A stretch of DNA of 48,077 bases, from NCBI GenBank assembly GCA_017883185.1, contig JADGOB010000014.1, positions 1-48,077 on the forward strand, read 5' to 3'. The stretch's first letter is position 1; the number at the start of each line of letters is the position of its first letter. Source of the DNA: Acidobacteriota bacterium. Lineage in GTDB: Bacteria > Acidobacteriota > Vicinamibacteria > Vicinamibacterales > Fen-181. The notes below the pieces were generated by a model. That model ran no database searches, was not told the origin of the DNA, and saw only the letters and a list, made by a program, of their open reading frames with translations. Position numbers and translations under genes: made by a program. Of this stretch, positions 34,450 to 38,819 are shown one piece after another.

Positions 34450-34752
34450 TCAGCTGGAACTCCTGTCCACCGTCAGTTCCACCCGCCCCACGCGCACGCG
34501 ATCTCTCGCTGTCAGCGAAGCGCGCTTGATGCGGCGATCGTTCACGAACGTGCCGTTCGTGCTGCGGAGGTCCTCGATCTCCAGCTCCCCGGAAGCATGG
34601 GCCGTGAAGCGGCAGTGCAGTCGCGACACGAGGGGGGCCTCGACGATGAAGTCGGCCCTGACCGCGCGCCCGAGCGTCTTGATCCCTTCCGGCATCACCC
34701 GGAACGTCAACCCCTCGTCGCCGCCCACGGACTTCGTCTGCAGGATCCACAT
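34450..34752 (-). CDS. Small FHA-domain protein
   Basis: This 100-residue protein is almost entirely one forkhead-associated domain, which binds phosphothreonine peptides. GRAVRADFIVEAPLVSRLHCRF contains the conserved G-R and S-x-x-H residues, and STNGTFVNDRRI is the phospho-recognition loop. The start codon lies 1 bp beyond the stop of the alpha/beta-hydrolase gene, so the two are likely cotranslated. An FHA protein needs a threonine kinase partner; the only kinase-like gene in the window lacks catalytic residues. The partner is therefore probably elsewhere. Confidence 0.85.
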   Translation of the reverse strand: MWILQTKSVGGDEGLTFRVMPEGIKTLGRAVRADFIVEAPLVSRLHCRFTAHASGELEIEDLRSTNGTFVNDRRIKRASLTARDRVRVGRVELTVDRSSS

Positions 34753-34753
34753 T

Positions 34754-36421
34754 CTAGCGAGCCCTCATCGTGTCTTTCAGCCAGGTTTCGATCGCCGAGA
34801 GCACAGTGCGGCTGACGGTCTTGTCCGGCAACCGGTCGTACTCGTCAACGTCGCCTGTCTTCGCCGGCACCAGCAGGTGGTTGATTCCGGCTAGTTTCAC
34901 CAGCTTCACTGCCTGGCCGGCGCGACCCTTCCTGGCCTTGGCCATCGTCTCCAGCTTGTCCGCGTTGGTGGGCGCGACCTGGGCGTCCAGTTCGCCCTGG
35001 ACGATGAGGACGGGCTGATCGATCTTCTTCATCACTTTCGCGGGATCGAAGGTGAGATAGCTTCTGAACCACGGCGTATCCGTCTGGCGCCGCACGTCAG
35101 CGGGAATCGCGTCGAGGCCGTTCCCGCTGATGACCGCCTGCTGGATCTTCTCCTGCAGCTCGATCTTGGCCTGCTTCTCCGCGTCCGGGATATTCATCAG
35201 CGCGAGCAGGTGCCGCTGCTGCTCGAGCGCGAGGGCCGCGCCGCTGACGCCTGGCGCCGCGACGAGCACGAGGGCGGAGATATCGCCCTCTCGAGATGCC
35301 GCCAGGGCCGCGACGGCGCCGCCATCTCCGTAACCGAGCAGCGCAATCCGACGCGGATCGACGTCCTTCCTTCGATTCAGGAACTTCACCGCGGCAACCG
35401 CGTCCTCCGCGTAGTCGGCCAGCGTCGTCGCCTCCGATCGGCCGCCGCTCTGGCCAACCCCGCGCTTGTCGTAGCGCACGACGACGTACCCCGAGTCGGC
35501 GAGGGCGGAGGCAACCTGGCCGAAGATCGGGATGCCGGCGACCGACTCGTCGCGGTCGGTCGGATCCGACCCGCCGACCAGGACGAGAGCGGGGAAGCGG
35601 AAGGACGGGCTGGGCCTGGTGGTCGGCTGCGACAGCGTGCCCGCCAGACTGAACCCGTTCGCGGGAATCTGCACCTGCTCGTCGTTCGGGCGCGAGACCG
35701 GCTCCCGGCGCGACGAGACCGACGCGATGTCGGACCGCACGACGTCAAGTGCCTGGGCCGGAACCGACAAGCGCAGCAAGCGCCCCCCCGAGTCCGCCCA
35801 CAGCTCGAAGTCCGCGGGCCGATTGGGGTTCGCGAACTCCAGGGTGAAGCGGCGGATCTGCAGCAGGGCCGCCTGCGTTCGCACGCGGTCGTCGGCGATG
35901 CTCTTGACGCGGATGGCGACCTGAGCCTGCGGGGGAACGTACGCCTTCAGTTCATCCCCCGGCTTGGCGGTCGCGAGTCGGGCGGCCAGCGCCTCGTAGG
36001 CGCCGAAGAAGAGGTTCGGGAGGAGGACCGCGTCGGGGGCAATCTCATCGGCCTTGTGCCCGACAGCCGTGCCCTGCGTGATACCGCTGGTCGCGGTCGT
36101 GCCGGTGACCGTCGTATGCAGCATGATTTGCTGGTCGCGCAGGCTTCCCTCGATGACGCACTCGAGCGGATACCACTCGGGCGAGTACGTGATCTCCGCC
36201 TTGCGCACGGTCATGCTGAGCGGCGGACCGATTCGCTCGGTTCCCCTAATCGTGAAGCCCAGCGGCGTCCGTGCAACCGTCACCTGCTCGACGCCGATCG
36301 CCACGCCCTTGAAGAACACGGTGAAATCGACGGGCTGAGCCGGGGCAGGGGGCTGCGCGTGGCCGACGCCTGTCAGCAGTGCGAAGACGACCAGAGCGAC
36401 AGTACAATGAGCAATACGCAT
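34754..36421 (-). CDS. Secreted alpha/beta-hydrolase-like protein lacking the nucleophile serine
   Basis: The 555-residue protein has a signal peptide (LVVFALLTGVGHAQ). Residues 30-235 form a beta-rich N-terminal region seen in some secreted hydrolases. From about 245 an alpha/beta-hydrolase domain follows (NGFSLAGTLSQP, LVLVGGSDPTDRDES, VVRYDKRGVGQSGG). The nucleophile elbow, expected as GHSEGG in this family, reads GYGDGG: Gly365 replaces the serine. Asp in VQGELDAQV and His in AGINHLLVP remain. The DNA reads clearly, so the change is not a translation error. It may be a pseudoenzyme or use another residue. The FHA gene follows after 1 bp. Confidence 0.82.
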   Translation of the reverse strand: MRIAHCTVALVVFALLTGVGHAQPPAPAQPVDFTVFFKGVAIGVEQVTVARTPLGFTIRGTERIGPPLSMTVRKAEITYSPEWYPLECVIEGSLRDQQIMLHTTVTGTTATSGITQGTAVGHKADEIAPDAVLLPNLFFGAYEALAARLATAKPGDELKAYVPPQAQVAIRVKSIADDRVRTQAALLQIRRFTLEFANPNRPADFELWADSGGRLLRLSVPAQALDVVRSDIASVSSRREPVSRPNDEQVQIPANGFSLAGTLSQPTTRPSPSFRFPALVLVGGSDPTDRDESVAGIPIFGQVASALADSGYVVVRYDKRGVGQSGGRSEATTLADYAEDAVAAVKFLNRRKDVDPRRIALLGYGDGGAVAALAASREGDISALVLVAAPGVSGAALALEQQRHLLALMNIPDAEKQAKIELQEKIQQAVISGNGLDAIPADVRRQTDTPWFRSYLTFDPAKVMKKIDQPVLIVQGELDAQVAPTNADKLETMAKARKGRAGQAVKLVKLAGINHLLVPAKTGDVDEYDRLPDKTVSRTVLSAIETWLKDTMRAR

Positions 36422-36481
36422 GGCCCTAAAAGAATAGCATCGGGCGGTGAACGGATGATAACGAGAGTCCCGGAGGCGACG

Positions 36482-37501
36482 ATGGAGTCAGGCGCGGAGT
36501 ATCGGGCGGCGAGGGAGTCGTCGGCGGTGTTCGACCGGTCGGGCCGCGGGAAAATCGCGGTGGCGGGGAACGACCGCCGCACGTACCTGCACGCCATGCT
36601 GACAAACGACGTCGCGTCGCTGCAGGCGGGAGGCGGGTGCTACGCGGCCTACCTGACGCCGCAGGGTCGGATGATCACCGACATGCGGCTGCTCGAGCTG
36701 GGCGACCTCGTGCTCCTCGATCTCGATCCATCGATGACGGCCACGGTTCTGCAGAAACTCGACCAGTTCGTCTTCAGCGAGGACGTGAAGCTCGGCGACC
36801 TGACCGAGGCGTTCGGCGAACTGTCGGTTGTTGGCCCGGCCGCGGCGCGCGTGGTGGCGGAAGCCATCGGAGCGGACAGTCAGCCTGGCGTGACCGAGAG
36901 CGACCTGCAGGGCTGGGAGGAGTTCCACAACGTCCGCACGACCTTCCGCGGCCAGATGGTCCTGGTGGCGGCGTCGCATGAGACGGGCGCGGCTGGCTTC
37001 GACCTGTACGTCGAGCGGCCGCACCGCGAGGCGCTGGCGGGCGCGCTGGTTGCGGCGGGCGCGACGCTCGCGGGCGGGGCGACCGCGGAGGTGCTGCGGG
37101 TCGAGTCGGGTCGGCCGGCCTTCGGCATCGACATGGATGCCGAGACGCTTCCGCTCGAGGCCGGGATTGAAGGGCGTGCCATCAGTTTCACCAAGGGGTG
37201 CTATCCAGGGCAGGAAGTGGTGATCCGCGTGCTGCATCGGGGCCACGGCCGCGTGGCGCGCAAGATCGCGGGAGTGATGGTGCCTGGCGACACCGTGCCT
37301 GCGACGGGCGACCTGCTGCGGGCGGGCGAACGCGAGGCCGGTCGAATCACCAGCGCGGTGTGGTCGCCGATGACAGGTGGCCCAATCGCCCTGGCGCTCG
37401 TCCACCGCGATTTCCTCGCGCCCGGCACCGAACTGACGATCCTCCACGGCGACCATGCGCTCTCCTCGACGGTCGTCACGCTTCCATTCGAGCCCCGTTA
37501 G
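36482..37501 (+). CDS. ygfZ: Folate-binding YgfZ/GcvT-family protein
   Basis: This 339-residue protein belongs to the YgfZ (IBA57-like) group, folate-binding proteins that support iron-sulfur cluster enzymes. KGCYPGQEVVIRVLHRGH is the signature of the family and contains its conserved cysteine. GRGKIAVAGNDRRTYLHAMLTNDV and YLTPQGRMITDMRLL are the GcvT-like folate-fold blocks. Length is normal. ATG 36482 was chosen for its CGGAGG site eight bases upstream; an in-frame ATG at 36455 would add nine residues. It is divergent from the alpha/beta-hydrolase gene and convergent with the MutT-type gene. Confidence 0.88.
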   Translation: MESGAEYRAARESSAVFDRSGRGKIAVAGNDRRTYLHAMLTNDVASLQAGGGCYAAYLTPQGRMITDMRLLELGDLVLLDLDPSMTATVLQKLDQFVFSEDVKLGDLTEAFGELSVVGPAAARVVAEAIGADSQPGVTESDLQGWEEFHNVRTTFRGQMVLVAASHETGAAGFDLYVERPHREALAGALVAAGATLAGGATAEVLRVESGRPAFGIDMDAETLPLEAGIEGRAISFTKGCYPGQEVVIRVLHRGHGRVARKIAGVMVPGDTVPATGDLLRAGEREAGRITSAVWSPMTGGPIALALVHRDFLAPGTELTILHGDHALSSTVVTLPFEPR

Positions 37502-37556: not shown

Positions 37557-37958
37557 CTAATAGCGTGATGCAGCCAGGCGCGCCACTAGTTCGCTGTCGG
37601 CGGGCGGAAACGAGAGCGTGTGGAGTTCGTGGCGGGCGACCCAGCGGATCTCCTGTCCCAGCAGCGGTCGCGGCTCGGTGGTGAGATCGCACCGGAAGAA
37701 CCTGAGGTCGAGCACCCGATCGGCGTAGGCGTAGGTCGTGCGGAAGATCTCCTCGTGTACCGTGGCGCTCGCGCCGAGTTCCTCGACAATCTCCCGCGCC
37801 AGGCACGCTTCGGCCGATTCGCCCGGCTCGCACTTTCCGCCGGGGAACTCCCAGAAGCCGCCCATGTGCGAGCCTTCGAGGCGGCGGGCCACGAGAAGAA
37901 AGCCGTCGCGCTCGATGACGGCGGCGGTCACGACGGTCGGTGCCTTGGTCTTGTCCAT
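37557..37958 (-). CDS. MutT-type Nudix hydrolase
   Basis: The 133-residue protein is likely an 8-oxo-dGTP or related nucleotide pyrophosphatase that cleans the precursor pool. The Nudix box is GGKCEPGESAEACLAREIVE followed by ELG, matching G-x5-E-x7-REUxEExGU. The flanking VVTAAVIERDGFLLVARR and GFWEFPGG are typical of MutT-like enzymes and of the MutT-like C-terminal domain of MutY. The gene begins 19 bp after the stop of a short mutY-like gene on the same strand. The two products may work together on oxidised guanine. Other Nudix substrates cannot be excluded. Confidence 0.85.
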   Translation of the reverse strand: MDKTKAPTVVTAAVIERDGFLLVARRLEGSHMGGFWEFPGGKCEPGESAEACLAREIVEELGASATVHEEIFRTTYAYADRVLDLRFFRCDLTTEPRPLLGQEIRWVARHELHTLSFPPADSELVARLAASRY

Positions 37959-37977
37959 CGGGTAAGAACCGGGGGCG

Positions 37978-38688
37978 CTATGTCGCTCTGGCGTGGCGCC
38001 GCTTCTTCGCAGCGCTGGCGAGCTTCGCGATGCTGCCGTCGAGCGGATACGAGACGCACGACCGCGCCATCGGGCACGATGCGCACTGCGGCTTGCGTGC
38101 CGGGCAGACGATGGCGCCGAAATCCATGAGCGCCTGGTTGAAATCGAACACGCGCTTGCGGGGCAGCAGCGCGCGCGACACGTCCCACAGGTGTTTTCGC
38201 GCGGCGTGGGCTTTGGGGTCCCCCTTGCCCACGAACACGCGGAACAGCACGCGGGCGACGTTGGTGTCGAGGATTGCCGCCCGCTGGCCGAACGCGAAGC
38301 TTCGGATCGCGCCAGCCGTGTACTGCCCGATCCCCTTGAAGGAGAGCAGGGTCTCCTCGTCGGCCGGGAGCGCGCCGTTGTAGCGCGCGACCGCCTCCCG
38401 AGCGATCGAGTGCAGACGCCGCGGACGGATGTTGTATCCCAGCGGATACCAGGCTTGCACCGCTTCCTCGACGGGCCTGGCCGCCAGCGCTTCGAGCGAC
38501 GGGAAACGATCCAGCCACTCGTGGTACTTCGGCAGGACGCGGTCCACCTGCGTCTGCTGGAGCATGATCTCCGAGACGAGGACCTGGTAAGGATCTGTCG
38601 CGCGGCGCCACGGCAGGTCGCGGCCGTTCCGGTCGTACCAATCGAGCAGCCGGCGGCGAAACGCCTGCCGCGCGCCCGCTCCGGACAT
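37978..38688 (-). CDS. mutY: Short MutY-like adenine DNA glycosylase
   Basis: The protein has 236 residues from Met 38688. It is a HhH-GPD glycosylase: LVSEIMLQQTQV holds the catalytic Glu40, LLSFKGIGQYTAGAI is the helix-hairpin-helix, and ILDTNVARV holds Asp140. The [4Fe-4S] cysteines are Cys194, 201, 204 and 210. Usual MutY is about 350 residues with a MutT-like C-terminal domain that recognises 8-oxoguanine; here the protein ends 26 residues after the cluster. The neighbouring MutT-type gene may supply related activity. A mismatch glycosylase of the short MIG type is the main alternative. The longer open frame upstream runs into palindromic elements and was not used. Confidence 0.85.
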   Translation of the reverse strand: MSGAGARQAFRRRLLDWYDRNGRDLPWRRATDPYQVLVSEIMLQQTQVDRVLPKYHEWLDRFPSLEALAARPVEEAVQAWYPLGYNIRPRRLHSIAREAVARYNGALPADEETLLSFKGIGQYTAGAIRSFAFGQRAAILDTNVARVLFRVFVGKGDPKAHAARKHLWDVSRALLPRKRVFDFNQALMDFGAIVCPARKPQCASCPMARSCVSYPLDGSIAKLASAAKKRRHARAT

Positions 38689-38711
38689 CGCCGCTGTCTT
38701 CAGATTTCTTT

Positions 38712-38727
38712 TCCTCGACGTCGAGGA
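38712..38727. promoter_or_regulatory. Perfect 16-bp palindrome upstream of mutY
   Basis: TCCTCGACGTCGAGGA reads the same on both strands and lies 24 bp before the chosen mutY start. It could be an operator for a dimeric regulator. If mutY starts at an earlier Met (38733), it is coding instead. Confidence 0.35.
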
Positions 38728-38753
38728 CTTCATCCGCGGGGGACGAAAAGGAG

Positions 38754-38819
38754 GCGGACCCATGTTTCAGACCGTGCCATGATCAGTGAGCGGATGGCAA
38801 GAACTGAAAATGGGTCTGC
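38754..38819. repeat. REP-like palindromic element
   Basis: The outer arms at 38754-38770 and 38804-38819 pair almost fully (GACCCATGTTTCAG against CTGAAAATGGGTC, with one bulge). The inner arms TGCCAT (38775-38780) and ATGGCA (38794-38799) pair perfectly. The two-stem hairpin lies in the divergent gap between mutY and the cobalamin adenosyltransferase gene. A poly-C stretch follows. It resembles REP-type intergenic elements. Confidence 0.65.

Follow-up and report, generated by a model that had tools for sequence, protein, structure and literature searches.

At one syntenic locus found across an order of Acidobacteriota, a two-domain protein with an alpha/beta-hydrolase fold has lost its nucleophilic serine many times, with no inferred regain. 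The triad residues Asp479 and His515 were retained, the active site around them was relaxed, and the protein as a whole stayed under purifying selection. That the serine was lost recurrently while selection on the rest of the protein persisted suggests a main function no longer dependent on acyl-serine chemistry. We consider it probable on balance that the order conserves a second role, probably ligand binding, which was already present in a bifunctional ancestor and from which pseudo-hydrolases arose repeatedly.

Gene layout and the residue at the elbow

The window is the whole stretch of DNA that was analysed (48,077 nucleotides). The features of the gene and its immediate neighbors are as follows.

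34754..36421, minus strand: coding sequence of the two-domain pseudo-hydrolase, 555 aa, ATG start, with an order-wide match in 152 of 162 genomes at E ≤ 1e-60
36356..36421, minus strand: putative Sec signal peptide, residues 1–22, cleavage before Q23, predicted from sequence
35693..36343, minus strand: DUF6134-like N-terminal domain, residues 27–243, by PF19630 matches at the family level
34763..35689, minus strand: alpha/beta-hydrolase domain, residues 245–553, by a PF12146 match of 60.2 bits over residues 300–497
35564..35572, minus strand: oxyanion-loop residues 284–286, G-S-D here and usually G-S-G in Ser-bearing orthologs
35327..35329, minus strand: codon 365, GGA, Gly replacing the nucleophile Ser, from the codon read and the alignments
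34985..34987, minus strand: triad Asp479, Asp in 148 of the 149 orthologs having a residue there
34877..34879, minus strand: triad His515, His in 145 of the 149 orthologs having a residue there
34450..34752, minus strand: stand-alone FHA-domain protein, 100 aa, starting 1 bp past the hydrolase stop, PF00498 at 3.5e-17, not claimed as a partner
36455..37501, plus strand: YgfZ/GcvT-like gene, divergent, marker of the syntenic locus, PF01571 at 1.6e-36, start codon putative

Residues 363–367 read G-Y-G-D-G in the translation of 34754–36421 (minus strand). The original prediction placed a glycine where the nucleophile should be and kept the Asp and His of the triad, and the sequence, the alignments and a shallow structural model all agree with it. 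G365 pairs with the nucleophile Ser of solved alpha/beta-hydrolases (GYGDGG against GLSMGG) and, in the MAFFT alignment of orthologs and paralogs, with the Ser of GHSEGG. In an AlphaFold2 model it lies at the turn between a strand (354–364) and a helix (367–377), i.e., at the elbow position. This model was built from four alignment rows and has a mean pLDDT of 47.6, with 75–91 for the 10-residue blocks of 351–380 and below 50 for residues 1–243. The acid and the base of a serine hydrolase triad are therefore present (D479 and H515) and the nucleophile is not (G365). The oxyanion loop presumably has that role by homology.

An elbow serine located elsewhere was ruled out by the alignments, by the turn at G365 in the model and by a survey of Ser and Cys that revealed no substitute nucleophile. 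When the non-Ser copies were searched for a shared relocated nucleophile, no Cys was enriched and the two Ser-enriched positions reached only 0.33 and 0.30.

The remark that GGA lies at least two substitutions from Ser codons is correct, as every Ser codon is two or three changes away, but it is a weak argument because AGC to GGC is one step. Ser at this position is encoded by AGC in 59, AGT in 5, TCG in 5 and TCC in 3 of the 72 Ser orthologs, and Gly by GGC in 27, GGT in 8, GGA in 5 and GGG in 2 of the 42 Gly orthologs. Given that AGC and GGC are the commonest codons, a single step plus wobble is enough for the change from Ser to Gly, and the majority of the Gly states differ from AGC or AGT by a single change.

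The N-terminus resembles a Sec signal ending in GHA-Q, with no lipobox Cys at the place of Q23, and the pair aligned to A22–Q23 is AQ in 80 of the 145 orthologs having a residue at 22. The description of the protein as secreted thus keeps a putative standing, based on the sequence, and export to the cell envelope is probable.

The N-terminal domain appears to be a distant relative of DUF6134. PF19630 was matched by 33 of the 40 members scanned at E ≤ 5 (best 1.6e-7), and the window copy itself scored 13.2 bits (E = 0.093), under the curated cut-off of 27.9. A phylum-wide scan of 247 genomes detected DUF6134 in five at E ≤ 0.001, two of them above the cut-off and none of the five in the order of the window, so the case for a relationship to DUF6134 is carried by individual members of the family. 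Glycolipid_bind was matched weakly by 6 of the 40 N-terminal domains scanned (best 0.0042) and DUF3108 by 3 of 40 (best 6.7e-5), and a lipid or glycolipid role of this domain may be taken as a lead, not a result. Comparison of the domain with solved structures gave a single match (E 0.2), which we took as chance, and a search of open-licence papers found nothing on DUF6134.

The hydrolase domain is assigned to its fold by PF12146 (Hydrolase_4), with a score well above the cut-off of 27, and 40 of 40 members scanned match at E ≤ 1. Its best NCBIfam match is the esterase EstD (NF041096), which we take to be the Thermotoga EstD. The domain aligns to residues 144–419 of EstD (E 1.3e-33), and the EstD-like paralogs and the Ser orthologs have common GSGP..RD oxyanion-loop and GHSEG elbow patterns. 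However, over the hydrolase domain, to which the comparison applies, the match reaches 116.7 bits against an equivalog cut-off of 600, and the nucleophile is missing in the window protein.

Recurrent loss of the serine across the order

Orthologs are near-universal in the better assemblies of the order (≥90% complete, ≤5% contaminated), 98 of 100 of which match at E ≤ 1e-60. One of the ten genomes without a match at this threshold (G012) holds a fragment ending at a contig end. When 119 genomes were sampled across the class, the 86 that match at E ≤ 1e-50 all fell in the same order. The closest named record is an Acidobacteria metagenome-assembled genome (L037), 95% identical. Ten plasmid records match, none over more than 80% of the query, and the five listed among them cover the hydrolase domain only.

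One ortholog per genome was counted (n = 152), including nine partial ones that all cover position 365; in three of these, each a Ser copy, a residue is missing at 479/515. Two sequences from Geodermatophilus (L038/L039) were aligned and excluded from the trees, L004–L006 and L040 entered one MAFFT alignment only, and L007, L041, L042 and L211–L215 were left out.

The divergent YgfZ gene lies upstream of the ortholog in 144 of the 152 genomes, and the eight misses have ≤242 bp upstream in the stretch that was read. This synteny indicates that one and the same gene, at one place, encodes both the Ser and the non-Ser forms. The short intergenic region between YgfZ and the hydrolase may hold shared promoter elements. 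The FHA gene is adjacent in 41 of the 128 genomes having at least 700 bp downstream, i.e., in 27 of 67 non-Ser and 14 of 61 Ser genomes, counts that are uncorrected for relatedness. The window also contains a NUDIX (MutT-like) gene beside an HhH-GPD (MutY-like) gene (37557–38763, minus strand), and genes of these two kinds are found near the ortholog in many genomes of the order.

Position 365 is occupied by Ser in 72, Gly in 42, Ala in 16, Asp in 11, Asn in 9, Arg in 1 and His in 1 of the 152 orthologs, which leaves 80 without Ser, and Cys or Thr was found in none. The Asp copies are L012, L047, L049, L050, L051, L131, L150, L151, L152, L160 and L161. Close relatives of the window copy do not all carry Ser: the four found in the same genus have G (95.5% identity), G (63.4%), G (63.4%) and A (60.5%), and the two found in the same family have D (52.2%) and S (50.6%). 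Elsewhere in the order, the L105/L112 pair joins a Ser type and a Gly type at 79.4% identity.

Phylogenies of the 152 orthologs and 8 paralogs were reconstructed with FastTree and IQ-TREE after removal of columns 361–368. The Gly of the window sits in a clade of four genomes within a G/A/D clade of six, and elsewhere in the order one or other of Gly, Ala, Asp and Asn appeared on many further occasions. A single conserved Gly clade, for which the original prediction proposed a check, was ruled out, as the states are intermixed on the tree. Both trees require a minimum of 22 changes between Ser and non-Ser and 36 changes of state, and if Ser was never regained there are 24–25 maximal non-Ser clades. 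With Ser fixed at the root, a two-state maximum-likelihood model gave a regain rate of 0.0, and its likelihood equals that of the irreversible model.

The ancestral state is supported from outside the orthologs. Relatives beyond the order, fetched at E ≤ 1e-60 from 199 genomes of the phylum, keep Ser in GHSEG in 7 of 7 cases (six GHSEGG and one GHSEGA, the latter in L217), and the EstD-like paralogs have Ser at 18 of 18 places in 17 genomes, the query included. Both groups support the polarity in which Ser is ancestral. The N-terminal domain is also found in three of the seven out-of-order relatives, two of which carry it twice. In these two (L216 and L217) the tandem pair precedes a Ser-bearing hydrolase domain.

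Decay, retention and selection after the loss

Positions conserved in the Ser copies and degenerate in the non-Ser copies were scanned from residue 26 onward. The top positions (286, 285, 319, 365, 527, 364, 522, 284, 482, 481, 523, 518, 514, 366 and 516) are mostly in the oxyanion loop, the elbow and the Asp/His loops. Loss of H364 accompanies loss of Ser in 8.5 versus 0.0 of 18 independent pairs (median p 0.0039), and loss of S285 does so in 6.2 versus 0.0 (median p 0.031). The same lean, not reaching 0.05 in the independent pairs, was observed for K319 and Q481 (median p 0.0625 each), G284 and E366 (0.125 each), G286 (0.22), N514 (0.5) and Q475 (0.625). The nucleophile elbow of hydrolases has a strained backbone, and the frequent Gly, Asn and Asp would fit such an elbow if the turn were kept and the chemistry not.

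The acid and the base behave differently from position 365 and the oxyanion loop. D479 is kept in 79 of the 80 non-Ser orthologs and H515 in 76. The seven non-Ser clades with more than one tip together span 16.3 substitutions per site. Within them a single change was counted at D479 and two at H515, compared with a domain median of 11 and with counts of 14, 20 and 17 for positions 365, 285 and 286. All 152 orthologs share R316, D318, R320, G326 and G327.

A near-invariant Asp-His pair exceeds the need of a pure binder, and catalysis could have been retained, which counts against a binding role. The nucleophile may never have been essential, with Asp479–His515 acting as a general base (in proton abstraction, elimination or direct water activation) and residue 365 tuning the pocket; we think this rather unlikely. 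It gains from the fact that both residues are among the slowest sites after Ser loss, and there is precedent in the same fold. In the cofactor-independent dioxygenases HOD and AqdC, the nucleophile is reported to be inessential, a natural Ser-to-Ala replacement occurs and a His-Asp pair serves as the base (PMC10548524). The present family has the same alpha/beta-hydrolase fold, and its pattern of a replaced nucleophile and a kept His-Asp pair would fit such chemistry; it differs in its Gly, Asp and Asn replacements and its decaying oxyanion loop. The oxyanion loop and N514, L516, T522 and G523 near His515 degenerate in the non-Ser copies, and this decay argues against an unchanged reaction continuing. 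Furthermore, the Ser copies retain the canonical elbow, and His was lost in 4 of 80 non-Ser versus 0 of 69 Ser copies with any residue at that position, which fits decay. It is possible, though we doubt it, that the nucleophile has been dispensable since the origin of the protein in the order, with the Asp-His pair performing a nucleophile-free reaction or working as a ligand switch and the Ser an accessory irreversibly discarded in more than 20 lineages.

Selection was assessed by Nei–Gojobori dN/dS in 62 ortholog pairs at 75–99.9% identity, for which full-length values ranged from 0.093 to 0.397. The 28 Ser–Ser pairs gave 0.093–0.264 (median 0.178) and the 31 non-Ser pairs 0.100–0.397 (median 0.202). 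The hydrolase domain alone had a median of 0.190 in the non-Ser class and 0.159 in the Ser class (p 0.022 by a rank test on pairs that are not independent); for the N-terminal domain the two values were 0.197 and 0.194 (p 0.88). Terminal branches gave a hydrolase to N-terminal domain length ratio of 0.729 in the 66 Ser rows and 0.826 in the 77 non-Ser rows, with a permutation p of 0.065 that is uncorrected for relatedness. The low dN/dS, with a slight rise in the hydrolase domain, indicates a mild relaxation after Ser loss and clearly persisting purifying selection. In the sense of an enzyme-family homolog that lacks a catalytic residue and is under selection, the non-Ser protein is a pseudoenzyme, with its catalytic activity presumably lost.

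The relaxed active site and the small excess of hydrolase-domain evolution in non-Ser copies are also what would be seen if the DUF6134-like domain alone mattered and the hydrolase domain were a passive appendage drifting to loss. We disfavour this and give it little probability, since in both classes conservation is higher in the hydrolase than in the N-terminal domain (mean entropy 1.66 against 2.10 in non-Ser copies and 1.43 against 1.94 in Ser copies), its dN/dS stays low in the non-Ser pairs (0.102–0.382) and its five invariant residues persist. No clear ortholog that had lost the domain was found, and the fragment in G012 stops at the end of its contig.

The nucleophile of haloalkane dehalogenases is an Asp, and Asp elbows also occur in dehalogenases and epoxide hydrolases more widely. 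The Asp copies could by this token be Asp-nucleophile enzymes of such a kind, and the other replacements could mark other activities of individual lineages; H364 is kept in 10 of the 11 Asp copies and GHDEGG is present in 5 of 11. However, Asp mixes with Gly, Asn or Ala inside small clades (e.g., D in L151 and G in L061 at 91.6% identity), and we regard such neofunctionalization as very unlikely. Misalignment, assembly error or dying pseudogenes are scarcely credible and were ruled out: many genomes are fragmented drafts and one Ser copy (G080) has an in-frame TGA, but the remaining ortholog matches listed have no internal stop, the motif context recurs in 152 genomes and dN/dS is low.

A probable conserved second role and its known parallels

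The favoured reading, a conserved second role in a bifunctional ancestor, would proceed as follows. The ancestor would have been a serine hydrolase with a second role independent of acyl-serine chemistry, and this role would be what the order conserves. As such a role has no need of the acyl-serine chemistry, Ser would have been lost again and again and never regained. In the non-Ser copies an acyl-enzyme would be impossible and esterase activity presumably gone, with the fold and the Asp-His pair kept. The likeliest role of these copies would be that of a carrier, sensor or scaffold binding a ligand of the ester, acyl or glycolipid type. The proposal that the protein binds rather than hydrolyses its ligand fits the purifying selection and the retained Asp-His pair, with nucleophile-free chemistry remaining its rival. 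The mild relaxation of the hydrolase domain visible in non-Ser copies counts against this reading, as do their higher mean entropy in both domains and the seven co-losses that stay above 0.05 in independent pairs. In addition, Ser and an undamaged elbow persist in nearly half of the orthologs, so that in many lineages the catalytic function is still of importance.

Pseudoenzymes that arise repeatedly are already a known kind. For the fungal Dis3L2/Ssd1 pseudonucleases, four or more losses of the active site with another function conserved are reported, and a bifunctional intermediate was proposed (PMC8097288). As here, the losses recur in an orthologous protein, and the conserved other function would be a further parallel. 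The fungal case differs in concerning a eukaryotic nuclease with fewer losses, some of them after duplication. Its highly conserved part is the N-terminal cold-shock domains, and in the present family the hydrolase domain itself is the better conserved one. NDRG3 and the neuroligins have the alpha/beta-hydrolase fold with catalytic residues replaced and serve in scaffold or protein-interaction roles (PMC7022630). NDRG3 lost the whole triad, whereas the present family keeps Asp-His and its loss recurs among orthologs. Among the papers listed in searches of the open-licence literature, on nucleophile loss in alpha/beta-hydrolases and on pseudoenzymes in this group, none described this family or some 20 losses in syntenic orthologs of one bacterial order with Asp-His kept.

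Loss of a catalytic residue is often described as a single event in a duplicated paralog. Here it recurs within syntenic orthologs, and Ser and non-Ser forms occur in sister species. The order thus offers many natural replicates from which to learn what parts of the active site degenerate once the nucleophile is gone, in what sequence, and what function keeps the remainder in place. If the nucleophile-free reading is true, the family would amount to a replicated natural experiment in how enzymes shed catalysis. For annotation, labelling this gene simply "alpha/beta hydrolase" is unsafe for roughly half of the genomes studied (80 of 152).
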